A DNA stretch of 64,000 nt, taken from Muricea muricata. Taxonomy: Eukaryota; Cnidaria; Anthozoa; Malacalcyonacea; Plexauridae. Below are positions 15,726-63,282 of this stretch, in pieces (position 1 is the stretch's first letter; each line of letters begins with the position of its first letter). Made by a program: the position numbers and the translations under genes. The DNA lies in assembly GCA_963855995.1 (NCBI GenBank), contig OY979716.1:56778089-56842088 (forward strand), in the 5' to 3' direction. The notes under the pieces were generated by a model that was not told the DNA's origin, did not search any database, and saw only the letters and a program-made list of their open reading frames with translations.

Positions 15726-15739
15726 CGACTTTTAGTCAT

Positions 15740-29787: not shown

Positions 29788-29952
29788 AAGGGAACAAGCG
29801 CGAACACAGGTCCCGACTAGCAGAGATTCTTCGCTCGAGTTACCCACATTAGGGGTAATCGCAGGAGTCAACCCAGGCTCGTTGTGCAAAGAAAGGGCCC
29901 CATCCTGAGATGACCTCCTAGTTGATCAAGGTGCCTCTCGCATCAGGTAAGT
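29788..29952 (-). ncRNA. U1 snRNA gene, lacks first two nucleotides, preceded by insertion
   Basis: Minus strand starts ACTTACCTGATGCGAG (the 5'-splice-site-pairing end). It continues through CCTTGATCAACTAGG (stem-loop I, U1-70K loop GATCA), CTTTGCACAACG (stem-loop II, U1A loop), CCTGCGATTACCCC and GTGGGTAACTCGA (stem-loop III region), AGAATCTCTGC where the Sm site should be, and GTTCGCGCTTGTTCCC (stem-loop IV). Known: U1 base-pairs with 5' splice sites in the spliceosome. The Sm site is degraded compared with AATTTSTGG and the promoter is separated from the gene by a 295-bp insert, so this copy is probably silent. The first two bases (AT) are found at 30259-30260. Confidence 0.9.
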
Positions 29953-30247
29953 TTTTATTGCAAGGCCTGCTCCCGACACCAATAGGGTCGTGCAATGGTC
30001 GCAGGGTAAATGCAACTTGGAAGACCCCCGTTCGCGAAACCGCACTTTTTTGTGAAGAAAAGCCCGCTACAGGTACCGCACCTTCCAGAGCACAAAACTA
30101 GTACGCCGTTAAGTGCACTAGCTAAATCTCCCCCAATGGAGAACAAAAAATACAACCTGCTGGGCGTACCATACAGGAGGAAAAAACTGCTGGGCAAACC
30201 ATACAGTATGAGGTGCCTGCTGGGCTAACCATACAGATGAAAAACTT
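29953..30247 (-). mobile_element. 295-bp insert in U1 with 11-bp target duplication
   Basis: Flanked by direct repeats ATCAGGTAAGT at 29942-29952 and 30248-30258 (sense: ACTTACCTGAT, U1 nt 3-13). In sense orientation it contains three variants of TGTATGGTTWGCCCAGCAG spaced by 15-25 bases and ends CCTTGCAATAAAA. Its 3' part has CCATTGCACGACCC, resembling CCATTGCACAATCCC at the matching place of the U1-associated LINE tail. It is therefore either a 5'-truncated diverged LINE relative or a SINE that borrows its tail. Confidence 0.8.
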
Positions 30248-30260
30248 ATCAGGTAAGTAT
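30248..30260 (-). ncRNA. U1 snRNA 5' end (13 nt) left of target split
   Basis: Sense ATACTTACCTGAT is U1 nucleotides 1-13, including the +1 AT missing from the main body. Together with 29788-29952 it gives a complete U1 interrupted by the 295-bp insert. Upstream 30261-30325 is the putative U1 5' flank; about 35 bases of it (GTGGTTCTGCC and on) recur at 50558-50590. Confidence 0.8.
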
Positions 30261-30446
30261 GTGGTTCTGCCTGCAGACTCCTGCTGCCTAGCTAATTTGC
30301 ATGGTTTGCCCTGGCCAGCTTGGCTAAGTTTATACTTTCAAATACGACATAGCCGTCCCAACTGAGGGATTGTGCAATGGCATGCCGAATTTCAGGGTGT
30401 GTAGCCACACGCAAAACAACTACAGAGACGATCCCTAACCCCGACT

Positions 30447-30468
30447 AAATGCCTGTGTAGCACACATT
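30447..30468 (-). promoter_or_regulatory. Shortened 3'-UTR hairpin of LINE copy 1
   Basis: AAATGTGTGC...GGCATTT is a reduced version of the longer hairpin seen in LINE copies 3 and 4; the CAGTGCCG/CCGGTG part is missing. Confidence 0.45.
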
Positions 30469-30606
30469 TAGCGCTAATAGACACGACAACACTCTGACAA
30501 ACAAGACAGAAAACAAGGCAGAAAACAACATAAAACATATAATTTCGTGGAACATAAATAGCGCTATAAACCCCTACAATTAAAATAAGCTAGATAATCT
30601 AACTAG

Positions 30607-30726
30607 GTTAAAAATGTATATATGTGTATGTGCGTATGTGCGTATGTGTAATTTAACCTATATGTATATACACGCACGCGGACGCACGCACACGCACGCA
30701 CACGCACACGCACGGACACACACGGA
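30607..30726. repeat. Alternating purine-pyrimidine tract in LINE 3' UTR
   Basis: TATG/TGCG repeats and CACG repeats occupy the 3' UTR of LINE copy 1 only; the other copies lack them, so they arose after insertion or in this lineage. Confidence 0.8.
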
Positions 30727-33700
30727 CAATGCACCATGGAAGATTGCACCTGGAGACAACCAAAAAGGTTAAAAAAGGAAAAAAGAGAAAAAAAACACAC
30801 CTAGAAGGAGAAGACAAGCTCCGAACCCTCCAAGTGCCCCAAAGAATCGTGGCCAAGCCACTACCACTCAAACGTGCAAATTTGAGCAGGGCTCTTGCAC
30901 CACTTAAATAATAGAGATCAATTAAATTAGATTCTAATAATAGCTATATGCAGTATTTGCAAAGCTATGGGTACTTTCTGACGAAATCGAAAGTCGCACC
31001 GGGCAACCCAAATGGCATATTTCATGACCAAAAGCACGAAAAGAAAGATGGAAGGGATTGCCCGACGACGAGCTTCCGAAAACCCAAAAAGCAGCTCATC
31101 AGCTGTAAACCGAACAATGGTTGGGTTGATACGGTTCAAGTTGGTGTACACCCAGGCCACTTAGAGGCGAGCACTTGAAAATAGATGTTCCGGCGTCTTG
31201 TCGGCAGCTGCACAAAATCAACGGCTGTCGACTCCATGCATACCAAAATTAATGGCCAAGTGGGCACATATGTAGAGAACCCCATGTGCGATCTGCCAAC
31301 TCAGATCGACCACCTTACGGTCCAGATCACAAATATGCAGCTGGCGTCATGTCTCTGGCCAGTGCAAGGGACCGTAAGTGTGGAGGAACTTCGAGATACA
31401 ATGGCGTTCCTTTGTGTTTCGCGATGTGAGCTGCGAGATGTTAACTGGGTTGTCAGAAGATACCCGAATGCCCAGCTCATCACTACCCACTATCAAACCT
31501 TGATCCAGGGCCCACTATACGCTGAAAAGGAGCTGATAAAAGGTGGGCAGAGAACATAAAAGGCGACGAGGCTGGGCAGTGAGAAGTGCGTTGCGTGGCT
31601 CTAAATGTAAAGAAATAAACAAAAAAGGCCTTCCATCTGCCATCGGAAGACACAAAAAAACGTTTGAGCCACTGCAACGCAAAAGCTTTGGCTTTTAATC
31701 TAAAGTTTACTACCCCAAAGCCACCCTGAGCTTTGGGGAGACTAACTGTGGTCCGGGCCACTTGGTCACGTTTGCCAGACCAAAAGAAGGTCTAAATGGC
31801 CTTATCAATGCGTTTCCCTGCCCAAACAGGAATGGGGAAAATGTGACACAAGTGCAAGATTTGAGATAGAGCTAGGGTGTTTATGACAACTGCCTTCCCC
31901 TGAAAAGACAGTTGTCGCTGGGACCACGAGGCAAGCCGAGTCTCCAAACTGGAAACGACTGGCTCCAATGTTGGGGTGGTGTAATCACCGACACTGAAGG
32001 TCGCACCAAGCAGTGGCAGTTGTTTTACCCACCGCAGCCCATAAGGGGTATCGGTGCGATCCTTCCAGGAACCAGCCCACATAGCCTTCGACTTGCCTCT
32101 ATTTAATTTAGCGCCAAAGGCCCTCTCGTAGGTAAAATAAACTGAGAAGGTCTCCTCTATTTATTGCTCTGTAGTGACGGCTACAGTGGTGTCGTCCGCG
32201 TAGCCAGAGCACTTGTACCCCTCCACCTAGTGGGGGATGATTACGCCCTGAATTTGCGGACATGCACGAATGCACTCCGCAAGCACTCTGATGGAGAGGA
32301 CATATAATACAGGAGACAGAGGGCACTCCTGGTGCACACTCCTAGTGGGGTTAAAAAAAAAGACGTCCAGCCGTTAATAACTACTGCGGATTGGACGCCA
32401 GTATAAAATAAATGGACCCAGTTGCAAAGCTGAGGTCCAAAGTTAAAAGTCTCGAGTATGCGGAGCAGGAATTCCCAATCAACCCGATCAAATGCCTTCT
32501 CTTGATCTAAGGAGAGAAGGGCGAGGGGAATATCTTCTCGCTCCTCATACTAACAAATCTCGCACTCCCGCGAGATTTTTGCTGATGGTCCGGCCACGCA
32601 CATTGCACGTCTGATCCGGACCAACAACGCTAGCCATTACACCAAGAAGGCGCCCGAAATAGCTCTAGTAGCGATCTTGTAATCTACATTGAGCAGGCTA
32701 ATGGGGCGCCAACTCTTGGTGTCAACAGGGTCATTCTTCTTGTAGAGTACAATAATGAGTTCCTGGCGCTGGGAGGTGGAAAGCTGGCCGGCCTCAAAAG
32801 CTGCATTGAGGACACGGACCAGATCAGCACCGAGGGACTGCCAAAATACTGTATAAAACTCCATAGGGAGACTGTCTGACCCGGGTGTCTTACCGTGGGG
32901 CATGCCCGAAAAGGGCGGCCCAACATTCATCAACGGTAAGACACCCCTCACAACCAGCCCTCTCAGCTTGACTTAAGCGACGTGTCAGCTGAGGGAGCAT
33001 GGTGTGTTGAGCTATAGGATCACACACCTGTGCGGTAATTAGGTTGTCATAATACGACCGCCAGACACCTAGGATCTCAAAAGGGTTATGGCGGACCAGT
33101 CCAGTTGCAGGGTCGCGTATCGAGTACATCATCTCCCGGGCATGATGTTTTGACTCCACGTTCAAAAAGTAGGAGGAAGAAGTCTCTCCCTCCTCTGCCC
33201 ACTGGCAGCGGGCACGAACCTGGCCCCTTTGGCCTTGTACAGGGCGATGTCTCGCAACTCCTGCTGGACTGTGCACAGGCGTGTGAAGGCCGTTTGATCC
33301 TCCTGATCGAACGCTACTTTTAACTTATTCATTTGTTTGGTAAGAGAGGCCTTCCTGCCGCGTTTGTTGGCAGCCTTGGCCTGTTGGTAAGTGCGGGAGA
33401 CCTCTCTCAAATAAAATTTGCCCTGGTCCCACCAGTCCATCAGGGATGGAAAGTCAGCATGACTTTCTATGGACTGCCAGTGGGACCAGAACGAAGAGAC
33501 TAGATTAATATACTCGGGGTCCTGGAGGAGCGAAGCATTCAGCTTCCACACCCCGGCCTCGGTCAAATTGTGGTGCTAATGAAAAATCCACCAATAGGTA
33601 TTGGTGGTCGGATAAAAATGTTGGATGGTACTTGCACCCTTGAATGTAATTACTTAATGCTGTTGGAGCCCACACCATGTCAATCCGCGACACGTGGGTA

Positions 33701-33827
33701 CCATCCCCATGCGTCCATGAGTACGCTGTGCGGCCTGGTTGTAGTTGGCGCCACAATGGGTAGATTTGCGTGAACGACATGAGGGACTCCAACGCAGCAA
33801 TGCTTTCCCGTTGCTGTGCAGCATTAA

Positions 33828-34182
33828 ATTGCATTACAGTAAAAAATATGAAATTTCGTGCTCAACGATAAGAAAAAACGACTGGCATCATCAGAAAAGA
33901 GCACAAAAACCTGCATATAAGACTCTTAAACAGTTTTTTTATCCTTCAAATAGTTTTCGTGTTATTTGTGTTTTAAAGGGGAAAATTGACCCGAAATCGC
34001 GCAATAAAAACTGGGAACTAACTTAAAAATGAGGGTTTGAGAACAAATAACTTGAGAACTATTCGGAGAATAAAAAAACGGTTTAAGAGTCTTATATGCA
34101 GTTTTCTCTGATCTTTCTGATGCTAGCAGTCGTTTTTACTATTGTTTAATATAAAATTTTACATTTTTTGCTGTAATACAAT
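33828..34182. mobile_element. 355-bp fold-back MITE flanked by TTAA
   Basis: Left arm ATTGCATTACAG... and right arm ...CTGTAATACAAT are inverted over about 120 bases (both contain TGCATATAAGACTCTTAAAC or its complement). TTAA lies directly outside at 33824-33827 and 34183-34186, the duplication produced by piggyBac- and Kolobok-type elements. It interrupts the endonuclease domain of LINE copy 1, so it is younger than that insertion. A further 160 bp of unknown DNA (34187-34345) follows before the LINE resumes. Confidence 0.8.
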
Positions 34183-36516
34183 TTAATAGTAGATAGCCAC
34201 AGTCTCTTGATTTTTCCCATAAAAATCCCGAATTAGGCTTGGTAACACCCCAAACCTATATCATACAAGCAATACAAAGACAAATATCGCGAATGTACTT
34301 TTCTAACACAAAGTTGCCATCAAACGATGTATTTCAAAACTTGGCCGGCCGGCCGACTAATTGAGGATCTAACACTGAATTAAAATCACCGGCCACAAAG
34401 GTTGGCCGGGATAGATCAAATAAGCCTGTTAACACGGCAAAAAAGTATTACGCGCCGGATTGTGGTTTGGCGCATATAAACTAATAAAGCTAGCCTGGCC
34501 TTCCCCGAAGTCCACAACGGCCTGAACATAGCGGCCATCTTCATCCTTGATTATCTTCATGATCTGGAGTCACACCACATCCACCTTCATACACGTAAGC
34601 CAGTTTACCAGTGCAGTTCGCTTTAGATGGTCGTTCAGACCGTTAATGGTCAGTGCTATTGCTCTGAGATCCATTATCGGACTCCAGGAAAGATGCAGGC
34701 AGCTCCATAAGGAGCTGTAAACAGTTAGGATCGGCGAGAAGCGCCCTGTTGATGTCCTCCAAAGTGTCCAGCGGCTACTGCCCTGACTGGGCCACAGAGG
34801 CCCCACCAATCAATTCTTCAAACCTCCCCGTTGATGATGCAGGGGAGGGTAGAAACCAGGGTATGAGGGGAAAGAGCCGAACAATGACTCATCTCCCTCT
34901 TCCACCGATGGAAAGGAGCTGCTATGGAATGGGCATGGAGTTTCCCACCTCGTGTTGGTAACCACAGCAGCTACGTTTGAGGACTGAGAGAGAGACTCCA
35001 TCGTCGACTCCATCTCCAAGCAAGAAAGAGGGGAGGAGACTGGCGGGATCTCGCTCCCCTCAACTAAATTATTGATATTTTATTATTATTCTTATTAATA
35101 GGAGGCTGGGCTGCTCTCTGACCAGCCTCGCCAGGAGCGGAAGGGGCAGTCTCACCCTGTGGGTCTTTGGCGACCGCCTTAACTCCCGCTCCCTTTGAAG
35201 ACCAACCCCTTAGCTTTGCCAGCCTCTCTATTTACTTTTGGTGGAAGGAAGCTGCATATCCATAAGATCAGCCTCTCCAAGGGCGCAAGGGACAGCCTCA
35301 CCTCAAGGGTCTATGGCGGCTTCCTGAACTTTTGGCCCCTTTGAGGACTGACCCACAGATGTGTCAGCCTCCTTAACAATGCTATTCTGTGTTTCTGGGG
35401 AGGATCTCAACGCAGCAGCTTTCGAAGGTGCCGACTTGACATCCCTCGACGCGTTGAGCTTAGTACGGAGATCCTCCACTGTTTTCTTAGGAAGGGCAGA
35501 GACAGTGCGCCCTGACCTTTAATACTAATTTGTGGGTCATCTTGACCTGATTCACCACCACCACTGCCTATGGTGTTAAATTTACTTTGGTACTATTGAG
35601 GTAGTAGAAGAGGTTTTTAGAGTTTTAGGTTATTGGTGGGAATGGATAAACATTGTGTGAATGAAATTTCTTTTACAAATAATTTCTGTTTCCTTTTAAA
35701 CTTGCCTGTCAATAACGAATTGGGGATAGTCCAAGATGGCCGCCATGAGTTCATTATGAAGTGTTTTAAACCTTCTTAAAACCATTAGAGAAGTTGTGGC
35801 AAGCTGTCTTCGCAGTTAATATGGGAAAGAGGTTTCCCTGATAATTTGGTCAGTTTTAATTTACACATTGCGATTAGATTTGCAGAAATTTTGATCGATT
35901 CTAGTATATCATCTCACTATAAATATTCTGGCTTTTTGGGTAACTGAATTCAAAAATTGGGTCACTGAATTCAAAAGGATGCTTTATCCAGTAATTTAGA
36001 TCAGTGTTGCCATCCCATTGTTGGTTTTTGGCTGATTTCTGGGCCCTCCAAGACTTTGGGCTGTACTTGCTCGCATGCTCTACCTCCAGGCATACGAAAC
36101 AAGTTGGTGGCTGCCCGCGGTAACGGAAGGATACCAAGAAACCACCGATATTAATGTTGGCTGGGATAGGCTTTGTGAGAACCATGGGCACCCTACGAGT
36201 GCTGCGGAGTGAACGGACTCAAAGCCATTCACTTTAAGATGTTGTACGGAAATTACTCTCCCGTAGGGTGCCAAGGTCTCAAACAAAATATTGTCTTGCA
36301 TTTTTGAAAATCCTACGAGCTAGTACATTCTTAAGGCGTTTATCAACGTTCTATCATGAAGTATTCATGTCTACAGTGAGACCGCTATGCATTATGGAAG
36401 AGCAACGGAAAATTTCAATATGACCCATAGCCCCCTTGCAAACTAAAACAAAAATATAAGTGTAGAGAGAAATTCTATTACACACGTATGATCTTAGTAT
36501 TCTAACATATAGTGTA

Positions 36517-38078: not shown

Positions 38079-38154
38079 TAGTATCTGTTCAGTTTTGGAG
38101 CACTTTGTTTCATGGTTGATTTCATAGTTCATTTTATATTTGATTCAAGGAATA

Positions 38155-38312
38155 GGTGGGCTGTTCTCGGTGGTAGTGCAATGACCGAGACAACCCGTGG
38201 CCAGGGCAAAGCAAGCTTTAGAGATAAGTCCCATGGCCGAGCTGCAAAAATCAGTTTAATTTATGAGTTAGGCATTGCCTAACATATCAGATATTAAGCT
38301 GATAAGAACAGA
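38155..38312 (-). ncRNA. U2 snRNA gene, 5' part replaced by retroelement
   Basis: Sense starts CTGTTCTTATCAG and continues TTAATATCTGATATG (stem-loop IIa region), a small stem TTAGGCAATGCCTAA, AATTAAACTGATTTTTGC (Sm region), AAAGCTTGCTTT (stem-loop III) and CGGTCATTGCACTACCACCG (stem-loop IV, U2B'' loop), ending GCCCACC. Known: U2 recognises the branch point. About the first 40 nucleotides, including the branch-point-pairing region, are missing; in their place lies the 3' end of the RLE retrotransposon. Several substitutions against the normally invariant sequence indicate a pseudogene or an old insertion. Confidence 0.85.
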
Positions 38313-38870
38313 GTTTCTTATCAACAATATCCAAAATGATGGGACCAAGCCAAGTGTGTGTGGTGGTGCAACACCGTCATCGTATAGAACAAAAAAGGTC
38401 ACTTGTATAAAATAACATATAACACAAAACAAACATAGATATGGAAAAAGAAATGAGAAACATGTTCCCACATGTACCACGTAGGGTGATAAGAAAAAAA
38501 AAGCAATAACAAGAAGAGAAACAATGAACTAATGTACAAGAGGACGTACGATTGGACAAACAATAGGACGTACAATAGGACAAAATGAAAACAATAAAAA
38601 ACAGGACAAAGGAAATGGATGGCTGATGTAACAACATACTGCATCCAAGGAATAAGATGGAAGCAATATTCCTTCTTCTGATGCTTAACCCGAGTAGCAC
38701 ACCTGGGACGAAAGAAAGAAATGGTACAACACATTACAATAAAACAGAACAAATAAATAAGAAATTAATAATTTCGAATGACTGACGTGATACCGCATCC
38801 AAGAAGTAAGCCCAAAGCAAAACTCCTTCACGTGGCAAACAAAAGGGAGCACACCTGGAAAACCGGGAGC

Positions 38871-41110
38871 TCAGGAGAGGGAGCCACCCAAGTATGGGGT
38901 GGAGGATTCATCACACCCCGAACGAAGTCGATAGATAGAATTAGACCCCTTAATAGCATCAGTACAACACAACTTGCGAAAGAGCGACTTGTACCTGCGG
39001 GTCATTCCCAGCCACATCGACAAAAGCTCATTTTGTTTGTACCACGACCCCAAGGCACCTACAACAAAGGGATAAATCTCACAAGATTTACCCTTGGAGG
39101 AAAGAAACTCCTTGAGGGGGGCATACTTGTCAATCTTGGCTGCAGCAGCATCACTCAGAGCAACAGTATCATTGTCGAAGGGACAAGTAACGTCAATTAG
39201 TAAAACACGATTGTCCTCTTCAACAATAACATCAGGTCGCAAGCAGAGGTAGGACTCTTGAACTGTACGGTCAGTTGTAATCTTGCCGAAGCGGATAGCA
39301 TTTATTAGGCGGGAAACAATCGCATTGTGGCGGTCACGAATCTGAACCATGTGAGGGCGACAATGGCAGATAACATGCGGTAATGTCTCGAGCATCAGGC
39401 AGTGGCGACACGTAGCAGCGGTGTTTGAGAAGTGACTCTTATTTGCATTGAGAGGAACTACATTGAGCCTGGTGCGGCGGATGAAGTGCCAGTCTTTAAA
39501 AGAGATGTTCAGACCAGTGCAGTGCCAAGTGGAGCCGTTACCATATTGACCATTAGAAAGGCACCGAGCAACCTTGCCTTGGTCTCAAAGAGCCATCAGC
39601 TCATCACCAAAACGCGACTAAGCCAGGCGATTTAAGAAAGTTGTAACAGTCCGAGACTTAATGGGCTCCGAGTCCTAGAGTCCTACGCAGCGATGGAAAC
39701 GTCATCAGCCTGTTCAGAGTAATGGAAACTGACACGGAGACGACGACAAGCCATACGGACACGCGACCACAGATTAGAATAGGTGTAGTAAAGGTGATCG
39801 GTTCGGCGGTCAGGTGACGAAGACAGGTAGGTAGACAACAAGTCAGGCATGGGATTCCACGGGTTGACCGGCGGACAATGTATTTCAGTCCTTGCCTAGC
39901 CATGGCAGCAACAGCGGGATCAGAAGATGACAGAATGCGCACAGCCTGAACGATGGCCTGAACAATGGCCTGAACGTCACACTCAGTTCACGGTTCCTAA
40001 AAAGCCAAACCACCTGTTCATTTAGTGGTGAAGAAATAAGAGGACGTTGCACGATCCGAAGGGAACAGACATCATGCAGCACAAGAACCAAGGTGGATTT
40101 ATAGATATCAAGGAACTGCATCTCAGGATTGCCAGCCCTAAGGGCATACGTGAGACACAGCTGTACAAAGGTGCAAATGGCATCCAACTTCTGCCACGGA
40201 GCCAAAAAAGAGTATCCAATAAGCTCAACATGCCGCGTAAGCTGCAGAACAATGCTAGGTAGATCATCAATGTTGTGAACGAGTCCAATTGGAACACCCA
40301 GGTAGTGGTACGACTGCTCCTGGGCCAAGGCTGGGATGTGATTACCCTGGATCAAAAAGTCCTGCTGATGAACAAATGTGGCACGCTGCTTAATTGACGT
40401 GAAGGATAGTGAAGCGCACTTGTCCAAACAGAACGAAAGACCAACAATATGAGCAGCATCAGAGGCAGCATCCAACAACAGCTGAAGAGCGGCCTTGCTT
40501 CGGGCTACAATCACCAGATCATCAGCATAGGCAGGGCAGGACAAGGCAGTTCCATAGTCATAACAATTACCAGATTTCAAACTTAGCAGCAGCCTTCACC
40601 CGACGTAGGATGAGCTCAATACAAAGATTGAATAAAATAGGGCTCAGCCGATAGCCCTGCTTCACACTGGCCTGAACAGGAATAGAGCGAGTTTCACCAG
40701 CAGGTGACTTGATGGTCGTGGAAGCACCAGTGTAGGCATTCATAATGAGGGAAACGATGGGATCAGGGACACCAATATGACAGAGGGTGTTCACAATGGT
40801 CACATGTGGAACACTACCAAACGCGTTTCGGATGTCAAGCCAAGCGACACACAACTTCTTATCGCGCCGGGCTTGACCAACCAAAGATTTCAAGATATAC
40901 GTGTGCTCATAACAACCCTCTGTGGGTCGAGCACATTTCTGTTTCTTCGACAAGATGCCAACATCAATGGACCACCAGGTCAAACGTTTAGCAATGATGC
41001 CCATAAACAGCTTATAAATGCAGGACATCAAAGCAATTGGACGAAAGTTACTGACGTCAGCGGGGTCTCCCTTCTTATAGATAAGGACAGTAAACGCTCG
41101 TTTCCAGAGG
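38871..41110 (-). pseudogene. RT and restriction-like endonuclease of the U2-associated LINE
   Basis: In sense order: RT fingers (PIALMSCIYKLF type), CVAWLDIRNAFGSVPH (motif A region with the catalytic Asp), QGYRLSPILFNLCIELIL (motif B), CPAYADDLVIVARSK (motif C, catalytic YADD), then CRHC...HVICHC (zinc knuckle before the nuclease) and LRPDVIVEEDNRVLLIDVTC (PD...D core of the RLE nuclease). The frame shifts several times (near 40575, 39900 and 39650), so the product is dead. The RLE makes the nick that primes reverse transcription and gives site choice. Confidence 0.8.
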
Positions 41111-42945: not shown

Positions 42946-44875
42946 GGGCGTTGTCCAAAAGCAACCGAACATTTTCCGCAGGGGACCGACCTGGGATACC
43001 ACAGGACTGGTCGGGTGAAACCACCGAGGCGATCACCTGCAGAAGACAATTACCTAAGGCCTTACCGGCGATTTTATAGTCCTTACACAAAAGCGTGATG
43101 GGCCTCCAATTCGCCGGATCAAGGCAATCCCCCTTCTTATACGAAAGAGTGATGGCCCCATTTCTCTGGGATTTGCAAAGTCGACCGTGGTGAAAACAAG
43201 TGTTGTATACTTCTACTAAATCAGGGCCCAACGTGTCCCAAAAACACCGAAAAAATTCGGCTGGGAGACCGTCTACCCCGGGCGATTTAGCTGATGGCAT
43301 GTTCGAAAGAGCTTTCGAACATTCCTGAATGGTGAGGTCCCCCTCACACAACCTAAATTCGGCTGGGGTGAGCCTACGTTCGATGAAGTCAAGGAAAAGC
43401 CCTTGGTTGCCTTCGGACAGTTCCTGCGACGAGAACAAACGAAAATAGAACTCACCCCAGACATTCATAACGTCAGTTGTGTTCGTGGCTACTGTCCCAT
43501 CACTCTGCCTGATGGCATTGATCAGCGACTGCTGGCCTCGAACTCTTTCCTTCCTGAGGAAATAAGCCGTTGATCTCTCCCCTTCGACCGCCTCCCGGAC
43601 CTGTGCCCGTAACCTAGCACCCTGAGCTTGGTGAGATAGATACTCCTCAAGCTCAGCCCCAGCCTTTTCACGAAGCGCGGAGAGGTTTTCACCACGCTGA
43701 ACCCGTTGATCTAAGTCAGCGAGCCTGGAATTCAACCCGGCAAATTTATCCTTGTTCTCCTGCTCAAGATTACATGAGAAATCAATAATAAACCGTCGCA
43801 ATCATGCTTTGCGGGCTTCGTACCAATTAGAAAGGAGAGAAAACCCCCCCTTCTCTCGGCGCCATTTGCACCAGAGCTCTTCTACCCCGGTGCAAAAAGC
43901 CTCACGCTGCAGCAATGAAACGTTAAACTTCCACTGTCCGGGACCTTGCTCAACGCCCCAAGGGAAGTTGATCTCGAGGTACATGCACTGATGGTCAGAC
44001 CGAAGATATGGTGAAATTTCTATCTGCCTGACCAGGCCCAAATAGCGCACAGGCAACCAGATCATGTCGATGCGCAAATCCTGAGAACCATTTGTCCTCC
44101 TCCAGGTGAACGTTTTGACGTGGGGGTGACAAGCACGCCAAGCATCACAGAGTTCGAATGTACTCATCAACTGTCGATGAGTGGAGGCCCAATTGTTTGC
44201 CCAGGGGGATACAGGGTTGCATCCAAAACGATCGACATGGGGGTCAACCATTGCGTTAAAATCACCACACATCACAATTGGTATGTCTGGATCTACAGAC
44301 TGATAAAGGGACTCAAAAAATTGACGCCCTTCATTCCTAGAATTCGGTGCATATAGGCACATGACTTGGAAGTCAAAATTGTTGCCAGAAAATTCGACAA
44401 CAATAAGACGACCACAGTCATCCCTATGAACATTTTTAACCTGAAAAATGGGGCGAAAGAGAATGGCAACACCTGAGGATTGCGCGCTACCCGGTGAACT
44501 TTTGCAACACAATTGCTTGTGTGGCGGGGCCCTATTATTATAATCCTCCATCCAGGAGGAGAATTCCTGGATGGAGTTTGCAAGCGTTTCTTGCACACAG
44601 AGAAAATCAACGTTTAAACATAAAATCCAAGCAAATAATATATCCCTAGAGGCCTGCCCATGCAAGCCCTGCACGTTAAGGGTACAAAAGTTAGTGTTCC
44701 TCATCGAGGATCTTTGAGAGGGTGGACTGGTTGACGGTGGAGGATTTCTTTTTCTTGCCGCCTGTGGTGGTAATGGAGGGGTTGGTTTTTTACGTCCGCT
44801 TCCATGCAAGTTATTACTCAGGCGCTTTGGAGACGGATGCTTACGCTTCGAGGTTTTTGACCACTGACTCCGCAA
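42946..44875 (-). pseudogene. ORF2 of second LINE: APE endonuclease and truncated RT
   Basis: Sense: FCTLNVQGLHGQASRD (start of APE), VDFLCVQETLANS (catalytic Glu), IVMCGDFNAMVDPHVDR (Asp/Asn pair), LRIDMIWLP, and SDHQCMYLEI (terminal SDH). After a stop at 43802 the frame resumes with the linker and RT palm entry (PANWRPITLLCKDYKIAGKA, SCGIPGRSPAENVRLLLDNA), where it is cut off. Motifs A to C of RT are absent. A first stretch rich in Pro/Lys/Ser probably bridges from ORF1. An in-frame stop separates endonuclease and RT. Confidence 0.8.
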
Positions 44876-45322
44876 CGGACTGGATGTCTCCTTTTCAGTG
44901 GCAGAAGGATCAGACAGTTCTGAGGTCTCGCCTGGATGTGGTTGGAGTGTAGGAGTAGTGTTTTCTAATGGCTTTAATAGCTCATGCGTTGAGGGAAGGC
45001 GAGGCAGTGGTTCTTCAGTCTTCGAGGAATCAGGGTCGTCGAGAACTGGCGGGGATGTGTGTCCATAATTGAAGACTTGTGAGATTCTTCAGCCAACGGG
45101 AGGCTCGTATCCTCGTGGCCGGCTGGCGGAATGACCATACGGTCACAAGAAGAGGCCGGATCCACGGCAGGCAGAGCAGGTGGGGCCTGTGGTACGGGAG
45201 GGGGAGGGGGCACGGACTCGCCCTCTAAAGGCGGGACAATCTCCGAGACTACGGTGGCAGCGGACTCCTCCACAACCATCTCGGGCTGATCACTTTATTA
45301 GATTTTGACCCAGACTCAGTCG

Positions 45323-45871
45323 TCAAGGGGGGATCTGGGATGACTTGATTAGTTTGGACGGGAATGACAGGCTGTTAGGCCCCAGCCGCAATCTCCGCAA
45401 AGGAGCGCGTACCAAGTGGTGTGTCTTACGTGGGCAGCTACGGACCTCGTGGCCTGCTTCGCGACACACGAAGGAGGATCTAGGTTGGTTCTTATAGAAC
45501 ACGTTGATCGGGTTGCCCTGGATGGTAATTCTACTTGGAATGTCTTGCCTGAGTTCTATTTCCATGCGGTATTTAGACATCCCGTACCCTTTATGAGTAA
45601 TAGCCTTAAGGGCCGAGACAGGGCCGTATTTTGCAATGGTGGTTGTAATTGCTTCGTTCGGTAGACCGTATGGAACACGGTCTAGCACAACAATAGTTGT
45701 TGATTTGACCAGATCGATTTTTAGTTGATGCCCTCTAAAGGAGTACCCATGGGCAATGAATTCGGGTATCTGATCCTGACTGGCCAAGTGTAGTAGAAAG
45801 GCCTTGTTCCCGTGTTGCATGATGTTGAATACATGGCTTTTCATGATTTCCGAGCCTATTTGTCCCTCCAA
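45323..45871 (-). CDS. ORF1 of second LINE with altered CCHC knuckle
   Basis: About 180 residues: an RRM-like segment (VVLDRVPYGLPNEAITTTIAK) and a zinc-knuckle region SFVCREAGHEVRSC. The first Cys of a CxxCxxxxHxxxxC knuckle is replaced by Ser here, while the corresponding protein of the U1-associated LINE keeps it (CFVCQEVGHASKDC). Known role: RNA binding and RNP formation. Loss of the first Cys should weaken zinc binding. Confidence 0.65.
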   Translation of the reverse strand: MEGQIGSEIMKSHVFNIMQHGNKAFLLHLASQDQIPEFIAHGYSFRGHQLKIDLVKSTTIVVLDRVPYGLPNEAITTTIAKYGPVSALKAITHKGYGMSKYRMEIELRQDIPSRITIQGNPINVFYKNQPRSSFVCREAGHEVRSCPRKTHHLVRAPLRRLRLGPNSLSFPSKLIKSSQIPP

Positions 45872-46573
45872 ATCGTTGAAAATACCTGCCAGGGTTGGGG
45901 TAGGCTTCAGTGCCAGAGGGTATAGTACGTATTACCGCCCTCTTATGTTCGTAGATTGGCATTTACAATACAAAATAGAAAATAAATAAATGTAAGAGTT
46001 ACCAAAGCTGGTCCCAATTTGGGATGATCCAACTCAATATGTCCACAGTAATCCACACACACACACGAACACACCAATTATTTACAAGGGAGGCCAAGCC
46101 AAAAACACACGGACACGAGCTGGACCACAGACCAAAGGGGACAATGGCCAGCAGGCAGGACCAGAGGTCGGGACCAAGGCCAGCCAACAGCAATGGATGA
46201 ACCAGGACCACTGGACAGCACTTGGGACGAACTGCAACTGCTAGGCACACCAGACTGGAACTTCTTCAGGTCTTCACACAGGTTCTTCAACAGCAGTAAA
46301 TCTTCTTGTCTTGCTTTTCTTTCTCTTGCTTTTCGTACTTCTTCAGGAACTATCTTCAGAGGATAAGATATATTCTTAGCCAAAAGGCCGAGAAGCGATA
46401 CCTTGGCTGGGAGCGAGAAGCCTGTATCCCTCTCACTTTGGCGTGCGTGCACGTGGTACTTTCGTGAGTTGAGTTTGCATCAGAGTTGCTCGTGCAGCAC
46501 ACGAGTGCGCTGTATCGGGCATGCAGGTCACGTCATGCGTACACGGCGTGGGCATCGTCTATGGCTTTAATCA

Positions 46574-46810
46574 TCACGCGCAAACTTCCGGCGATTCAAC
46601 AGCACGACTTAATAAAAAGCCTAGAGCAAAGGCAGACAGTTCGAGACAGACATAGTGTATATAGCTGTTGCTGCTGCTTTTCATTGTCACTACTGAGTAG
46701 CCTCACTCCATGCTATAATAGTATCTGTCTCAATCTGTTGACCTTGTGTACTCATCATACAGTCACTGCAATGACTATTCTAAATAAGCTATTTTATAAG
46801 TTCAGAGAGA
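46574..46810 (-). repeat. U1 3' flank, second copy
   Basis: Repeats 29546-29787 with few differences, including the AGCTTATTTAGAATAG 3'-box-like segment. Homology stops near GCGCG on the left, where the transposase exon of the other locus continues. Confidence 0.75.
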
Positions 46811-46974
46811 AGGGGACAAACACGGACGCAGGTCCCCACCAGCAGAAATTCTACGCTCGAGTTACCCACATTAGGGGTAATCGCAGGAGTCAACCCAGTC
46901 TCGTTGTGATATGAAAGGGCCTCATCCTGAGAGGACCTCCTAGTTGATCAAGGTGCCTCTTGTGTCTGGTAAGT
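46811..46974 (-). ncRNA. U1 snRNA gene, second copy
   Basis: Sense begins ACTTACCAGACACAAGAGGC, then CCTTGATCAACTAGGAGG (stem-loop I), TATCACAACGAGACTGGG (stem-loop II region, altered), CCTGCGATTACCCC, GTGGGTAACTCGAG, GAATTTCTGCTGG (Sm site, better preserved than in the first copy) and GGGGACCTGCGTCCG...GTCCCC (stem-loop IV). Nucleotides after ACTTACC are changed (AGAC for TGAT), which would impair 5'-splice-site pairing, so it is a likely pseudogene. The LINE copy 3 3' end is joined directly before ACTTACC. Confidence 0.85.
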
Positions 46975-47089
46975 TTATATTTTAAAGATGGCGATTCTGT
47001 CCCTACTGGGGGAACATGCAATGGAATGCCATATTTCAGGGTGTGCACCTGCACGCAAACGACTGGGGAAACGATCCCCAACCCTGAAT

Positions 47090-47143
47090 AAATATGTGCA
47101 CCGGCTATTTCTTTTTACAGTGATGCGGCACTGGCACATATTT
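47090..47143 (-). promoter_or_regulatory. Conserved 3'-UTR hairpin of LINE copy 3
   Basis: Sense AAATATGTGCCAGTGCCG ... CCGGTGCACATATTT forms a stem of about 15 bp. Compared with copy 4 the outer pairs differ on both sides and remain paired (GTGGG/CCCAC versus TATGTG/CACATA). A second small stem GGGGA-TCGTT-TCCCC follows. Such 3' structures are known recognition sites for the LINE reverse transcriptase. Confidence 0.7.
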
Positions 47144-47555
47144 AGCACTAACACAAAATTGACCAACAGGACAGAAAACGACATAACCACAAGACAAACA
47201 TAAAGTGCGTACTTAATTTGAATTTAGATTACATGCCCCTACAATTAAAAGCTAAAAAAGCTAACTAAACTAAAACCGTGGACGGTGTGACACGCTAAGG
47301 TCACACCGGGATTAGAAAAAGAATAAAAAGACACTCAGAAGGCAAGGACTAATTCCGTACCCTAAAAGTGTCCCAAAGAACCGCGTGCAAGCCACTCCCG
47401 CTCAAATGCGCGAATTTGAGCAGGAGACTTACACCGCTTACTAAGTAAACCCAAGATGAACTTAATTTTTGCTAAGGCCTGATTAAGGCAGTTAGATGCC
47501 ACTGGCACCTTCTGACGAAAACGGAAGTCGCAACGAGCAACCCATATGGTATGCT

Positions 47556-50354
47556 TCATGACCAGCAGCATGAAGATGATAATAGAAGGGATTGCCCGCC
47601 GAAGAACTTCCAAAATCCAAACAGCAACTCCTCAATAGTGAAACGACTAGCAATTGGATCGATTGCCCTTAATTGGAGAAACACCCATGCAACCAGGAGT
47701 CGAGCCAATTGACACTCGGAAAACAGGTGTTCCAGAGTTTCGTCAGCTGCCCTGCAAAAGCAGAGGCTATCAACATGTTGCATGTTAAAGCGGTGCGCCC
47801 AACGAGCCCCAGTATACAAAATACTGTGGGCAACCTGGCAATTAAGATCTATTACCTTACGGTCCAGATCCCAGATGTGCAGCTGACTCCAGGTTTGGGG
47901 CCAGTGCAATGGACCGTAAGTTGGCAGGAACTTGCTGATATAGTGGGGCTGTTTGTATGTATGCAACCGCAATTGCTCGTAGGTGTTTTGAGAGGAGAGC
48001 TGTTCAACTGGAATAGGTATGTCAGAAGATGCCACAATACTTAATACCACACTATTCACTTCCCCCCGTCCATGGGTCCGCCATACCCTGAACAGGAGTT
48101 GGTAAAAGGTGGGGAGGGTTTCGACCAGATGGCGAGGCTGCGTGGATAGAAGGGCAGTCCATAGCTGCAAATTAAAAAAGGAAAAAACAAAATACACAAA
48201 AAACGATTTCCATTTCCTCACCGAAGGAACAAAAAATTGCTTCCGCCACTGAATGATAAAGGATTCCGCTTTTAAGGCGAAATTAATCACCCCAAAGCCA
48301 CCTTGGGATTTGGGGAGGCTTACTGTAGTTCGGGCAACCAAGCCTCGTTTGCCCGACCAAAAGAATGACCAGATTGCTTTATTTATTCGTTTCTCTGCCC
48401 ACGAAGGGATAGTAAAAACGTGGCAGAGATGCCAAATCTGGGACAGGGCCAAAGTATTTATAATAACTGTCTTGCCCTGAAAAGACAGCTGCCTGTCTGA
48501 CCACGCCGTGAGGGGCTTTTCTAGTTTGGCTACGGCTGGCTCCCACGTTGGGATGGTGTAGTCACCAACGCTTAAGATCGCAGCAAGCAACGGGAGTTGT
48601 TTAACCCAACACAACCCATGAGGGGCGTCGGTGCGAGCCTTCCAGGAACCAGCCCAAAGTCCTTTTGATTTGCCTCGGTTTAATTTTGCACCGGGGGCTC
48701 TCATATTTTGAGTATATTGTTAAAGACCTCCGCTAGAGAGTCATCGGTAGTAACCGCAACGGTCAGGTCGTCGGCGTACCTCGAACTCCTAAATTCCTCC
48801 AAAGAATTGGGAAGTGTAATACCAGTGAGTTTCGGAGACGTCCGAAGACAGACGGCAAGCACTTTAATGGATCGAACATAAAGTAGTGGGGATAACGGAA
48901 ACCCTAGCCACACCTCGCGAGAAGGAGAAAAAAAGGAGGAAGTCCAACCGTTGATAACGACGGCCGACTCTATATTATTATAAAATAATTTGATCCATTC
49001 AGTGAAATCTGGACCAAAGTTAAACGAAGAGAGTATGCGGATGAGAAAACCCCAGTCTACTTGATCAAAAGCCTTCTCTTGATCGAGAGACAAAAGCGCA
49101 AGCGGGAGATTCTCTCGATCCACATACTCTAAGAGATCTTGTCTGAGAGAGAGATTCTCAGAAATGGTGCGGCCAGGAACGCCACACGTTTGGTCTGCAC
49201 CAATCACAGAGCCCAAAACCCCTAAAAGACGACCCGAGATGGCCTGAGTAGCAATTTTATAGTCAACGTTTAAAAGACTGTTCGGCCTGTTCGGCCTCCA
49301 ATTCTTTGTCTCCAAAGGGTCGTCTTTTTTATATAATACTAAAATGAGCCCTCAATGCTGAGAGGTAGAAAGCTGGCCGGTCTCAAATGCAAGATTGAGA
49401 ACACGGACCAGATCAGCACCGAGATGTTCCCAAAAAGTAACATAGAATTCCATGGGGAATCCGTCTGAGCCCGGTGTCTTACTGCAACTCATGCCCATAA
49501 GAGCTTGAAAACACTCGTCCACAGTAAGACACCCTTCACATGAAGCCGAAGCCTGTTCAGTTTGATCGAGGCGACGTGTCAATTTTGCCAAAAGTTCATC
49601 TTGGGCCACAGGGTCGCACTGCGTAGCGGTGAAAAGGTCTTGGTAATAATTCCGCCAGACACTCACGATGGCAAAAGGGTCGTGGCAGACTTCACCCGTG
49701 TTGGGGTCCCTGATGGACTTCATGACCTGTTTGGCATACTTTTTGGTGGCAAGATTGAAGAAGAAACAGGAAGAGGTCTCCTTTTCCTCCGCCCACTGAC
49801 AGTGAGCACGGACCTGGGCACCTCGAGCCTCATGTAGAGCAATGTTACAGAGTTCCTGTTGAGCTTCACATAAAGTAGCAAAGGAGGCCTGATCTCTGGC
49901 TTCAAAATGGGCCTGCAATTCTCGCCTACGATTGAGGAGCGAGGACTTATGGTTGCGTTTTTGTGCAGCCTTATATTTAGAGTAGGAGCGAGTAACTTCG
50001 CGAAGGTAAAATTTTCCTTGGTCTCACCAATCTAGTGAGGACGCGAAGTCTGCATGGTTTTTGTACGTGTCCCAGAAGGACCAAAACGATTTTACTAAAT
50101 CAAAATACGTATTCTGGATCCTGGAGGAGGGAAGTGTTGAATTTCCACACCCCTGGTCCAGCAATAATAGGATCACGAAAACTGCACTTAACCAGTAGGT
50201 ACTGGTGATCCAAAAAGAAAGATGGATAATAATCGCATTCTTGGATGCAATCTTGCATGACAGTGGGCGACCAGATCATGTCTATACGGGACGGAAATTC
50301 GCCAGACCCGTGCATCCACAAATAGCTATGCGCTGCGGGTGAAGGGTGTGCCAT
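47556..50354 (-). pseudogene. ORF2 of LINE copy 3 (endonuclease end, RT, C-terminal region)
   Basis: Sense: endonuclease end FPSRIDMIWSPTVMQD and LDHQYLLV, linker, WRPNRPNSLLNVDYKIATQAISG, PGRTISENLSLRQDLLEYVDR, LALLSLDQEKAFDQVDW (motif A Asp), LGFPLSPLLYVRSIKVLA (motif B, normally QGCPLSPLLY), SSRYADDLTVAVTT (catalytic YADD), and a long C-terminal region ending with Cys residues (SLCFCRAADETLEHLFSEC). Breaks at about 49330, 48703 and 47560. Motif B is altered, so this copy is inactive. LSLDQEKAFDRVDW is typical of the Tx1 side of the L1 group. Confidence 0.8.
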
Positions 50355-50490
50355 AGCGGATATGTCTGAGTGAAAGACATAAGGGCCTCAACAGCAGGAC
50401 CACTCTCTTGAGCATGCACACTCGCACTGTCAGAAAATGAGGGATGGCGCTTGCGATCTAGAGCACTATCCAAAATGGAATTGAAATCGC

Positions 50491-50501
50491 CAGGTAAGTA
50501 T
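50491..50501 (-). ncRNA. U1 snRNA 5'-end fragment at 5' junction of LINE copy 3
   Basis: Sense ATACTTACCTG is U1 nt 1-11 exactly, followed by GGC shared with the LINE (GGCGATTTC). 50502-50690, to its right, would be the U1 5' flank; it shares about 33 bases with 30261-30295, displaced by a 57-bp indel. Alternative: a plus-strand 5' splice site CAG|GTAAGTAT, which has the same sequence by definition. Confidence 0.6.
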
Positions 50502-50689
50502 GAGTTTGAGCATGACTGGCACTCACCTTTTATTCACCCAACAAGAATGGAAACGGATGTGGTTCTGCCTACAGACTCATGCTGCCTATTGAAGGCTAGC
50601 CGTGCCAAAGGCCAGTCATTGTCAAGGAGGAAATCAAGTAAGACTGATGACGTAAATTCACAAGACGAGGTCGCTCGATCCCCCAAGGT

Positions 50690-50970
50690 CGTATCTGAGT
50701 TGATGGATACTCAGCCTTCACAGGAGACTTCGGTAGAAAAATTATCAACATTGCCTCTGGCTCGACATCTCACAGCTTTGCGCGAGATGTTTAACGTACC
50801 TACTCCATCAGACGATGATTTAGAGCCGGGGGAAATAAGAGACTCATCATCCATCCAGTCAATGGATGATGAGACATCTTCAGATCACTCTGATCTGAAG
50901 ATCAAGCTGGATGGTTCAGCAAAAACCATCCAGACAACTAGTGAGGCTGGCAGTCCATTGAGAGTTCAGC
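50690..50970 (+). pseudogene. ORF1 fragment of a LINE relative
   Basis: Frame with LPLARHLTALREMFNVP and DDDLEPGEIRDSSS, clearly related to SPLAHYLATLRQVFRM and DDLEPGEIRDSES in ORF1 of LINE copy 2. An open frame extends from 50451 to 51107 but its ends belong to other sequence (the last 40 residues read antisense LINE 3' UTR). No zinc knuckle is present. The fragment abuts the inverted part of LINE copy 4. Confidence 0.6.
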
Positions 50971-53900
50971 CTCAGAGTAGACTTAGAAGGAGAAGACAAG
51001 CTCCTGGCCCTCAAAGTGCCCCAAAGAACCACGGGCAAGCCACTCTCGCTCAAACGCACGTATTTGAGCAGGGCTTTTGCACCGTTTCGACATTAATTGC
51101 AGAATGAATTTTAATTCTGCTATAACTTTATTCAAACATGCTGATATTATCGGCGTCTTCTGACGAAATTGGAAGTCACAACGAGCAACCCAAGTGGTAT
51201 GTTTGACAACCAACAACATGTACATGATAGTTGCAGGAATTGCTCGACGACGTGCCTCTGAAAACCCAAACAACAACTCCTCAACAGTAAACTGACTAGC
51301 GGTTGGATTAATGGTGTATAAATTAAAGTATACCCAAGCAACCAGAAAGCAAGCTAGCTCGCACTCAAAGAACAGACGCTTGAGAGTCTCGTCATCAGCT
51401 CGACAAAAGCAGAGACTCTCAATGTGAAGCATGCCAAAGCGATGCACAAGACGAGCATTTGTGTAAAGCACATTGTGTGCTATCTGCCAGTTGAGATCGA
51501 TCACTTTACGGTCAAGATCGCAAATGTGCAACTGACTCCAGGTTTGAGACCAGTGCAACTGACCGTAAATTGGCAGATATTTCTACATGCAGTGCGGCTC
51601 TTTGTAATGATGAGACCGCAAAAGGGCACACACATTCTGTGAGGAGATTTGTTCTAATGCTAGAGGGACATCAGAAGACGCTTTAAGGCTGAGAACATCA
51701 CCATTTACTACGCCACCACCCAGGGTCCGCCATACCCGATGGATGATTTGGTAGAATTCAGGGAGTTGTTTTGCCTGCTGGTGATAGTGCTCGAGCAAGA
51801 GAGCATTGCGTGGCTGCATGTCAAAAGCTGACATGTAAAAGTGTGTGAGGAATGCTTTCCATTTGCCCTCAGACCGGGCAAAGAAGCGCTTCAGCCACTG
51901 CGATGCAAACGAGTCAGCCTTTTCTTGGAGTTTATTACCTCAAAGCCACCCTGGCCTTTGGGAAGGCTGACCGTTGTATGTGCAACAAGATCTCCAGACC
52001 GCCGTGATAATACGTCTTCCGGCCCAACGCGGCACCGGAAAAACGTGGCATAAATGCCAAAACTGGGACAAAGCCAGGCTATTGATGACTACTGTCTTTC
52101 CTTGGAAAGACAGTTGACGGCCTGCCCAAGCGGAAAGTCGCGATTCCAAATTACTAACTGCTGGTTCCTATGTTGGCGTGCTGTAATCGCCAACGCTGAA
52201 GGTCGCTCCAAGCAGTGGGAGTTGTTTCACCCACTGCAACCCATAAGGGGTATCTTGGCAATCCTTCCACAAACCAGCCCACATTCCTTTCGACTTTCCG
52301 CGATTTAGACGAGCGCCGGAGGCACGTTCGAATTTTGAATAGACGTGTAATGTCTCCTCGATAGATTGATTGTTTGTCACAGCTACGGTCGTATCGTCAG
52401 CGTAGCTGGAGCATTTGTATGGGTCCACCGAGTGCGGTATTGTAACGCTGGTGATTCTTGGTGACTTATGAATGTACTCAGCGAGCACCTCGATGGGGAG
52501 AACATACAAGAGAGGAGACAGAGTACACCCTTGCCGAACACCCCGCGAGGGGCGAAAGAAGGAAGATGTCCAGCCATTGATGACGACGGCAGATTCAACG
52601 TCTGTGTAAAATAGTTTGACCCAATTCAGAAAATCTGGGCCAAAGTTAAATGTTTCGAGTATGCGATGCAGGAAACCCAATCAACTCTATCAAATGCCTT
52701 CTCTTGGTCTAAGGAGAGAAGGGCCAGGGGGAGGTTTTCCCGATCAACATACTCAAGGAGATCTCTGATCGTAAATAGATTCTCGCTCATGGACCTGCCA
52801 CGTATGCCACACGTTTGGTCAGGTCCAATAATGCTTCCCATCACACCAAGAAGTCATCCAGATATAGCCCTAGTGGCGATCTTATAACCCAAATTTAAGA
52901 GACTAATCGGATGCCAATTCTTGGTGTCCAATTTATCGTTCTTCTTATAAAGAACGATAATCAAACCTCTGCGCTGAGTTGGAAAGTGGGCCGACCTCAA
53001 AAGCAGCATTGAGGACGTGAACCAAATCAGCGCCGAGGGTTTGCCACAATGTTTGATAAAATTCCACTGGGAAGCCATCCGAACCGGGGGTTTTACCCTT
53101 AGGCATACCCTTGAGAGCTTCAAAACACTCATCACAGTTAAGATTGCCTTCACAGCCAGGTCTCTCGGCCGTACTTAGACGACAATGTAGTTGAGAGAGC
53201 ATTTCGTCTTGCACAACAGGATCATAATCCTGTGCCGTGAACAGGTTCGAATAATGTGAGTGCCACACACCCAGGATCTCAAATGGGTCGTGGCGTACGA
53301 GTCCAGTCTCTGGATCGCGTATAGAGTGCATCGTCTGTCGGGCTTTTTGATGTGTTTCTAAATTGAAGAAGGAAGACGAAGTCTCTTTTTCTTCAGGCCA
53401 TTGGCAACGGCGCGCACCTGTGCCCCTCATGGCTCATGCAGAGCAATGCCTCACAATTCCTGCTGGACTTCGCATAATTTGCCAAATGCAGTTCGATCCC
53501 CCTGGACGAACGATCTTTTTAATTTGTGCATTTGGCGTGTGAGAGAGGTTTTCTTGCTGCATTGGTCGGCAGCTTTGGAACGAGAATATGAATGAGTAAC
53601 CTCTCAAATAAAATTTACCCTGGTCCCACCAGTCCATAAGGGAGGAAAAGTCCTCATAATCTTCTAAGGACTGCCAATGGGGCAGAAAAAGCTCACCAGG
53701 CTGACATAATCGGCATCTTGCAGGAGGGAAGTATTGAATTTCCAAACTCCTGGGCCCGAGTCAATTTTTGGTAATAGATGAAATTAAAAGATACTGATGG
53801 TCTGTGAGGAATAACGGATGGTATTCCCCACTTTGAGGGCCAGAAGCTTGTCTTCTCCTTCTAAGTGTCGTCATTTTAATAATTTCCCGATGTGACCTTA

Positions 53901-54208
53901 GCGTGTCACATCGTCCATTATTTTATCATTAGTTGACAATCATTATTCTAATTAATTTTATTTAGTAGGGGTTTCCGTATATGTTTATATGTTTAAAATA
54001 TGTCCCGTTCGTAACTGTTTGTCTTGTAAAATTAGCGCTAAATGTGGGCCAGTGCCGCATCACTGTTAAAAGAAATAGCCGGTGCCCACATTTAGTCGAG
54101 GTCAGGGATCGTCTCCCTGGTCATTTGCGTGCCGGTGCACACCCCGAAATACGACATTCCATTGCATGTTCTCTTAATAGGGACAGAAATGTCGTCTTTG
54201 AAATATAA
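50971..54208 (+). mobile_element. L1/Tx1-like LINE copy 4 with 5' inversion, 3' end in U1
   Basis: 53834-54208 is a plus-strand LINE 3' end (from AGCTTGTCTTCTCC to AAATATAA). 50971-53830 is the preceding LINE sequence inverted, from the same AGCTTGTCTTCTCC point on its left to a truncated endonuclease on its right. This order is what twin priming produces. RT motifs in the inverted part: LALLSLDQEKAFDRVDW, RGVRQGCTLSPLLYVL, SYADDTTVAV, with frameshifts. The 3' end is followed by U1 ACTTACCTGATGCGAG. Confidence 0.8.
54040..54093 (+). promoter_or_regulatory. Conserved 3'-UTR hairpin of LINE copy 4
   Basis: AAATGTGGGCCAGTGCCG pairs with CCGGTGCCCACATTT across a loop of about 20 bases; a second stem CAGGGA-TCGTC-TCCCTG follows at 54103-54119. 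It corresponds base pair for base pair to the hairpins in copy 3. Confidence 0.7.
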
Positions 54209-54224
54209 ACTTACCTGATGCGAG
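54209..54224 (+). ncRNA. U1 snRNA fragment between two LINEs
   Basis: ACTTACCTGATGCGAG equals U1 nt 3-18 as seen at 29952 and then stops. It separates the 3' end of LINE copy 4 from the presumed 5' end of LINE copy 2, as expected when two elements land in one U1 site in series. Confidence 0.7.
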
Positions 54225-57244: not shown

Positions 57245-57249
57245 CTGCT

Positions 57250-59702: not shown

Positions 59703-59705
59703 CAA

Positions 59706-63270: not shown

Positions 63271-63282
63271 AGAGATTAGAGT

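Follow-up and report, generated by a model that had tools for sequence, protein, structure and literature searches.

What places the 3′ end of a long interspersed nuclear element (LINE) directly against the first nucleotides (nt) of U1 small nuclear RNA (snRNA) genes? The question arises in a 64,000-nt stretch of the Muricea muricata genome (contig OY979716.1, C1:56778089-56842088; hereafter the window), which holds snRNA tandem arrays together with LINEs. Sequence evidence argues, with little room for doubt, that the element in question, here called the U1-LINE, is a site-specific family of non-long terminal repeat (non-LTR) retrotransposons that inserts into the U1 snRNA gene, separating nt 2 from nt 3. 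This evidence comprises exact 5′ and 3′ junctions, a target-site duplication of 14-16 bp, head-to-tail stacking of copies, and partners resembling short interspersed nuclear elements (SINEs) at the identical site; the majority of copies read lie at this one site. The U1-LINE is a non-LTR retrotransposon of the L1/Tx1 group, 7.3 kb long, and presumably close to the Tx1 clade proper. Its first open reading frame (ORF1) carries both an RNA recognition motif (RRM) fold and a CCHC zinc knuckle, and its ORF2 encodes an apurinic/apyrimidinic-type (APE) endonuclease and a reverse transcriptase (RT). In the ORF2 of one copy (L069), Pfam places the endonuclease N-terminally (Exo_endo_phos, 1.4e-15; RVT_1, 6.1e-35), and the closest PDB match is LINE-1 ORF2p (E 1.2e-79). 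Many copies have intact ORFs.

LINE insertions at the start of U1 genes

Within the window, an initial annotation had described three points at which, in U1 sense, the sequence switches to ACTTACC directly after inserted DNA. All three were located, at 29952 (after ...TTGCAATAAAA), 46974 (after ...AAAATATAA) and 54209 (after ...GAAATATAA). The U1 identity that it gave to two long copies was borne out by Rfam, where the minus strand gives full-length U1 matches at 29789-29954 (109.4 bits) and 46811-46976 (109.7 bits; gathering threshold 69.5), and the LINE 3′ end that it saw before 46974 and 54209 is indeed shared, the tails at 46965-47151 and 54032-54218 being 84.5% identical. Of the three points, only 46974 joins the LINE to a U1 gene. 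What stands before 29952 is a SINE-like element of about 295 bp rather than the LINE, lying between a U1 promoter with ACTTACCTGAT (30258) and U1 nt 3; at 54209 a LINE tail does precede, but what follows is no U1 gene, merely a 16-nt U1 target-site duplication and then the 5′ end of the next LINE. Two features had been absent from that annotation: a further U1 start at 30258(-) and the 5′ junction of insertion B at 50499(-), where ACTTACCTGGCG comes between the U1 promoter (..CTCAAACTCAT) and a 5′-truncated LINE. Because both junctions of insertion B are readable, 50565-46810 contains a complete insertion within a U1 gene. In all, one group of LINEs contributes four copies to the window (A, B, C and D), at about 30.3-36.3, 47.0-50.5, 51.0-54.2 and 54.2-58.6 kb (Table 1). 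Copy A ends upstream of a U1 promoter (30259-30329), at a diverged second ACTTACC site, which we call the decoy; the inversion in copy C resembles, we infer, the outcome of twin priming.

Across the 453-Mb assembly of 74 contigs, to which all genome-wide counts refer, the DNA after the LINE tail is predominantly U1, as had been proposed, and only a minority of the copies read end in unrelated DNA. In a search with the LINE 3′ region, 44 matches came from the 40 of 77 candidates that were scored; 30 were fetched, and 29 of these reach the 3′ end. Downstream of the 29 tails stands U1 nt 3 in 24, the decoy ACTTACCCAAGC, located upstream of the U1 octamer, in four (three groups, hence possibly fewer events) and ACTTTCC in one. 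At one locus (L012), the LINE 3′ region is shortened and joined to the U1 interior. Exact copies of the terminal 16-mer number 43: 29 run into U1 nt 3 (five of them judged from site positions alone), four into the decoy and two into off-target DNA (C1:44.48 Mb and C10), five were left unread, and three, on C3, C7 and C9, were rejected as chance matches with no LINE tail. A second off-target copy on C10, with a different tail variant, continues into ACTATCG. The sequence WACTTACCTGAYGCG occurs at 196 genomic places, versus none for its reversed control; among the first 100 places listed, distances near 7.3 kb, 317 bp or 1634 bp are frequent, corresponding to the LINE, the SINE or the U1-U2 unit (1634 bp in L071). 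Counting exact matches only, the U1 promoter continues into the U1 body (empty site) at 72 places and into the LINE 5′ end at 41, and empty and filled sites occur within the same U1-U2 tandem array. An array at C16:6.11-6.51 Mb, in which one U1-U2 unit mostly follows another every 1.63-1.67 kb, accounts for 71 of these 72 exact empty U1 starts; C1 holds the remaining one despite its many LINE-joined U1 sites.

A search with the RT scored 150 hits of 2814 candidates. The site check took in all 93 hits of at least 63% identity and nine weaker ones. The site list covers 74 of the strong hits, and in 47 of these an exact site follows 1.7-2.7 kb downstream; 19 lie outside its reach, and one of the nine weaker hits has an exact site. 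Several observations weigh against a strictly U1-directed element. No exact site lies in range of the other 27 of the 74 strong hits, and of five such loci that were read, one has a mutated U1 site (L085), two are off-target (L081, L082) and two show neither tail nor site (L083, L084). The site of window copy B is itself mutated. Many copies on C16 are array duplicates, so that copy number overstates insertions, the 29 LINE-U1 junction loci falling into 22 groups. Finally, the ACT that follows the LINE end in L028, L081 and L082, the three copies read at off-target sites, could be the last bases of the LINE itself rather than the result of pairing with the target.

The same grouping bears on whether the junctions might descend from a single event, with unequal exchange then amplifying an array that held one original LINE-U1 join, in which case the specificity would not be real. 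Identical copies on C16 have this appearance, with five fetched C16 loci forming one group at 97%, but we judge such an origin very improbable: there are 22 groups, which also leads us to reject one segmental duplication as the source of the three window loci; LINE, SINE and LINE-on-LINE joins occur at the same base, and the decoy is used as well; empty units adjoin filled ones; the off-target copies on C10 carry the same kind of 3′ end; and the relatives at U2, U5 and a Penelope-like element have exact sites of their own. We give almost no credence to the notion that the conserved DNA found directly 5′ of U1 at many loci is U1 promoter or spacer misread as an element end, since the native promoter is different DNA with a ATGCAAAT octamer and the tail is contiguous with ORF2 and also present on C10 without U1.

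Table 1. Features of the window, with positions counted from its first nucleotide.
Feature	Position	Strand	Evidence
U1 snRNA gene from nt 3 on, 3′ of insertion	29788..29952	-	Rfam; 91.5% to the genome's U1 unit
SINE-like non-autonomous element at U1 nt 2/3	29953..30247	-	91.6% to 318-bp tandem SINE unit; ATTGCAC in tail
Left target-site duplication copy, U1 nt 3-13 (ACTTACCTGAT), after U1 promoter	30248..30258	-	Sequence
U1 promoter region with ATGCAAAT octamer; diverged decoy site ACTTAGCCAAGC at its start	30259..30329	-	Compare genome unit ACTCATACTTACCCAAGC..ATGCAAAT
U1-LINE-group copy A, in pieces, 3′ end joined to decoy site	30330..36301	-	69-82% DNA matches to L069; tail and junction
U2 snRNA gene	38151..38340	-	Rfam, 103.9 bits
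U2-targeting-type LINE pieces	42953..46035	-	42953-44759 89% to L070; 45425-46035 70%; Exo_endo_phos within 43805-45088
U1 snRNA gene from nt 3 on, 3′ of LINE B	46810..46974	-	Rfam
U1-LINE copy B, 5′-truncated, in U1	46975..50487	-	RT 48704-49351, RVT_1 E 3.4e-24; 67% to L069 over 3.5 kb; both junctions
3′-terminal hairpin of LINE B, AUUGCAC changed to AUUGCAU	46988..47032	-	Alignment and pair counts
Left target-site duplication of LINE B, ACTTACCTGGCG	50488..50499	-	Sequence
U1 promoter 5′ of LINE B	50500..50565	-	89% to promoter end of U1-U2 unit
U1-LINE copy C, ORF2 part, inverted relative to its 3′ end	50981..53826	-	86.8% to L069 over 2.9 kb
U1-LINE copy C, 3′ end and tail, hairpin 54151-54195	53829..54208	+	72% to L069 6839-7289 (within-LINE numbering)
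Target-site duplication ACTTACCTGATGCGAG between copies C and D	54209..54224	+	Sequence
U1-LINE copy D from 5′ end, four separate matching pieces	54225..58646	+	ORF1 zf-CCHC; Exo_endo_phos (APE)

Relatives at other sites and non-autonomous partners

Although the U1 specificity proposed at the outset is upheld, a picture confined to U1 is incomplete, as U2, U5 and a Penelope-like element harbour related LINEs, and the U1 site is shared with non-autonomous partners. The U2-LINE (L070) is about 50% identical to the U1-LINE in its RT and lies in U2, with a left junction at ..GGCTAAGAT, a right junction at which ..CAAAAT is followed by AAGATCAAGTGTAGTATCTG, and a duplication of about 5 bp. Its lineage is seen in L070, L087, L088 and at 42953-46035 of the window, where no junction of these pieces to U2 was read. 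The U5-LINE, as remarkable as the U1 case, occupies C1:35.02-35.49 Mb (L072-L074, L089) in the order promoter (..CTTTCGCCTTTTACTAAAG), LINE (..AATAAAAAT) and CCTTTTACTAAAGATTTCC, with a 13-bp target-site duplication, CCTTTTACTAAAG; the insertion point is in loop I of U5. From junction coordinates it measures about 5.2 kb, with an ORF1 of 517 aa stop to stop and an ORF2 frame of 1151 aa containing APE and RT domains, and exact LINE-U5 junctions number 11, against none in the control.

Sister to the U5-LINE, with 66-70% identity in the RT, is a Penelope-LINE (L075-L079, L097, L098) that lies within the GIY-YIG domain of an element presumed to be Penelope-like from its pairing of RVT_1 and GIY-YIG domains. 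The 8-bp duplication CGAGAAAG is present on the left side in two loci and on the right in five; three 5′ regions were fetched, L096 stopped short of the junction, and L098 provides an uninterrupted site. A 17-base terminus common to the U5- and Penelope-LINEs occurs at 46 places, of which 10 lead into U5, 32 into CGAGAAAG and four are left over. Exact Penelope sites likewise number 46, with a LINE end directly before 18 of them and not before the other 28. We had considered the dispersed L075-L079 as a non-specific control and rejected it, the same Penelope-like DNA following five of five fetched copies; with 28 of 46 targets lacking a LINE end and 32 LINE-CGAGAAAG joins, none of the lineages described is established as a non-specific control. 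Elsewhere in the window, 11884-15727 and 59702-64000 form large inverted repeats of about 98% identity, and matches below the Pfam cut-off to RVT_1 (11889-13493) and GIY-YIG (58977-59495) are perhaps Penelope-like. The stretch 38874-41184 carries the RT of a different LINE type (RVT_1 at 40570-41184) with no DNA match to the U1- or U2-LINE queries.

Two non-autonomous elements are inserted at the site of the U1-LINE. SINE2 is 318 bp long including one duplication. The other, a SINE-like unit of 456 bp that shares 92% identity with U1 nt 3-91 over its first 87 bases, stands in tandem at U1 sites (L025, L029, L094, L095). This U1-headed unit is also found beyond the main arrays at C1:32.65 Mb and C1:48.07 Mb, in the latter case within ..TATACTTACCT, another U1-like site.

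The tail hairpin and a proposed route of insertion

How such an element might find snRNA genes is suggested by a hairpin near its 3′ end that displays AUUGCAC, the loop of U1 to which SNF/U1A binds. In 18 distinct U1-LINE tails (mean identity in the alignment 91%), AUUGCA is invariant, and the stem that closes on the motif is paired in 96.3% of cells, with four pairs changed on both sides, in nine cells. None of 500 shuffles matched this stem in paired percentage, changed cells or score, five matched it in changed pairs and 88 in further pair types, though the tails are related by descent and the test thus overstates significance. Slid versions of the stem scored lower on every measure. The C-G pair beside the motif fails in 5 of the 18 tails. 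Single-sequence folding of the U1-LINE tail did not yield the hairpin and left the motif outside a clean loop, and the RNAalifold consensus kept the outer stem and inner hairpin, lost the three pairs beside AUUGCAC and paired the motif's last C. In the U2-LINE the motif occupies a clean hairpin, GGCUCC[AUUGCACCGUC]GGAGUC, near-identical in L087 and L088, and this genome's own U1 and U2 each bear ATTGCAC in a predicted hairpin loop. The motif lies at -49 from the end in U1-LINE tails and at -46/-45 in U2-LINE tails, and fewer than 0.1% of shuffled tails have the 7-mer at -52..-40. On both strands of the window it occurs 15 times versus 7.8 expected, several of these in the elements described here and in U2. 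No AUUGCAC was found in the U5-LINE tails (L072, L089) or the one Penelope-LINE tail (L075) examined.

Other LINEs have 3′ hairpins that are recognized by their own RT, and the account of the hairpin towards which we lean is that it is such a recognition hairpin, which came to the U1 and U2 lineages by descent and was acquired from them by the SINEs, and that it resembles U1 stem-loop II (SLII) and U2 stem-loop IV (SLIV) by coincidence; this concerns the hairpin only and not target specificity. The relatedness of the two RTs and the poor loop of the U1-LINE motif in the folds fit this account, which sits less well with tails that, by eye, are unlike outside the motif yet hold it at nearly matching positions, with its rarity there in shuffled tails, and with its absence from the U5- and Penelope-LINE tails. 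A more tentative idea, which we think rather unlikely, is snRNA ribonucleoprotein (snRNP) mimicry: the 3′ ends of the U1-LINE, U2-LINE and SINEs would imitate U1 SLII/U2 SLIV (C[AUUGCAC...]G), and host U1A/U2B''/SNF, or an imitating ORF1 RRM, would package LINE RNA as if it were snRNA and deliver it to snRNA arrays. The U5- and Penelope-LINE tails examined, which lack the loop, belong to elements whose targets are not known to use an AUUGCAC loop. According to the available text of PMC5992148, GGCCGC[AUUGCACCUC]GCGGCC is the form of Drosophila U1 SLII used with SNF, and proteins of the SNF family bind both U1 SLII and U2 SLIV. A Foldseek structure comparison gave best matches at E 6e-4 with TM-scores low over the whole model; the matches listed include yeast U1 snRNP chain 5zwn_Q and not U1A, which has no bearing either way.

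With the U1-LINE lying behind an intact U1 promoter and 16 nt of U1, its RNA would probably be made by the snRNA RNA polymerase II machinery, and such transcription predicts an RNA that starts AUACUUACCUGACGCGAG and continues into the LINE. The junctions imply an antisense-strand nick between U1 nt 2 and 3; the ORF2 APE endonuclease would make it at ACTCAT^ACTTACC, a site common to U1 and the decoy, and is expected to prefer ACTCATACTTACC. The freed 3′ end may then pair with ACU(UACC) where the LINE RNA, or its U1 read-through, terminates, and prime reverse transcription, while a second nick 14-16 nt downstream would generate the target-site duplication, which would rebuild the target and let further copies stack. 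The conserved hairpin is a likely RNA handle in this scheme, to be bound by the RRM-containing ORF1p, by ORF2p or by host U1A/U2B''/SNF.

Comparison with known systems

Among the matches listed in a search of the open-licence literature by title and abstract, there was no U1- or U5-specific LINE, and none is named in the available portions of PMC4640811 (2015), PMC8869645 (2022) and PMC3706591 (2013). As far as this literature goes, elements of this sort are known and U1 and U5 are new as their targets. Few LINEs are site-specific, and they attract study as a means of delivering DNA to repeated sites that tolerate it. Related APE LINEs occur within this one genome at exact U1, U2, U5 and Penelope sites and can be compared to learn which residues determine the address. 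Among the targets are the part of U1 that reads the 5′ splice site and loop I of U5, and the tail hairpin offers a directly testable idea of how snRNA genes are found.

Close parallels include LINEs in other snRNA genes. Keno, a Tx1-clade LINE of U2 genes, likewise has an snRNA gene target and shares the APE type with the U1-LINE, which differs, compared with the description of Keno in the accessible part of PMC4640811, in striking U1 between nt 2 and 3 and duplicating 14-16 bp there. U1-LINE copies were read in U1, the decoy and off-target DNA, not in U2; the U2-LINE L070, which does lie in U2, is probably Keno-like. Utopia, also in U2 genes, has snRNA gene specificity and occasional tandem insertions, as that same partial source describes (PMC4640811), but is of the restriction-like endonuclease type, whereas the U1-LINE has APE. 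Dada-U1 DNA transposons, according to the accessible sections of PMC3706591, insert in U1 genes, also in tandem, and have ATTGCAC near one end as in U1; they differ in their DDE transposase, their site, their mechanism and an apparently 8 bp, probably 6 bp duplication (GCGAAT/GCGAAC). The U1-LINE, by contrast, is an RT/APE element with a 14-16 bp duplication. Tx1L of Xenopus is an APE LINE with an exact target in another transposon, and the Penelope-LINE would be its analogue, differing in that its target is a Penelope-like element. R2 and R1, which occupy exact sites in the multicopy 28S rRNA genes, serve as the model for use of a host promoter; they differ from the U1-LINE in their rRNA target, and R2 proteins match its ORF2 far more weakly (E 2.5e-18) than does LINE-1 ORF2p.

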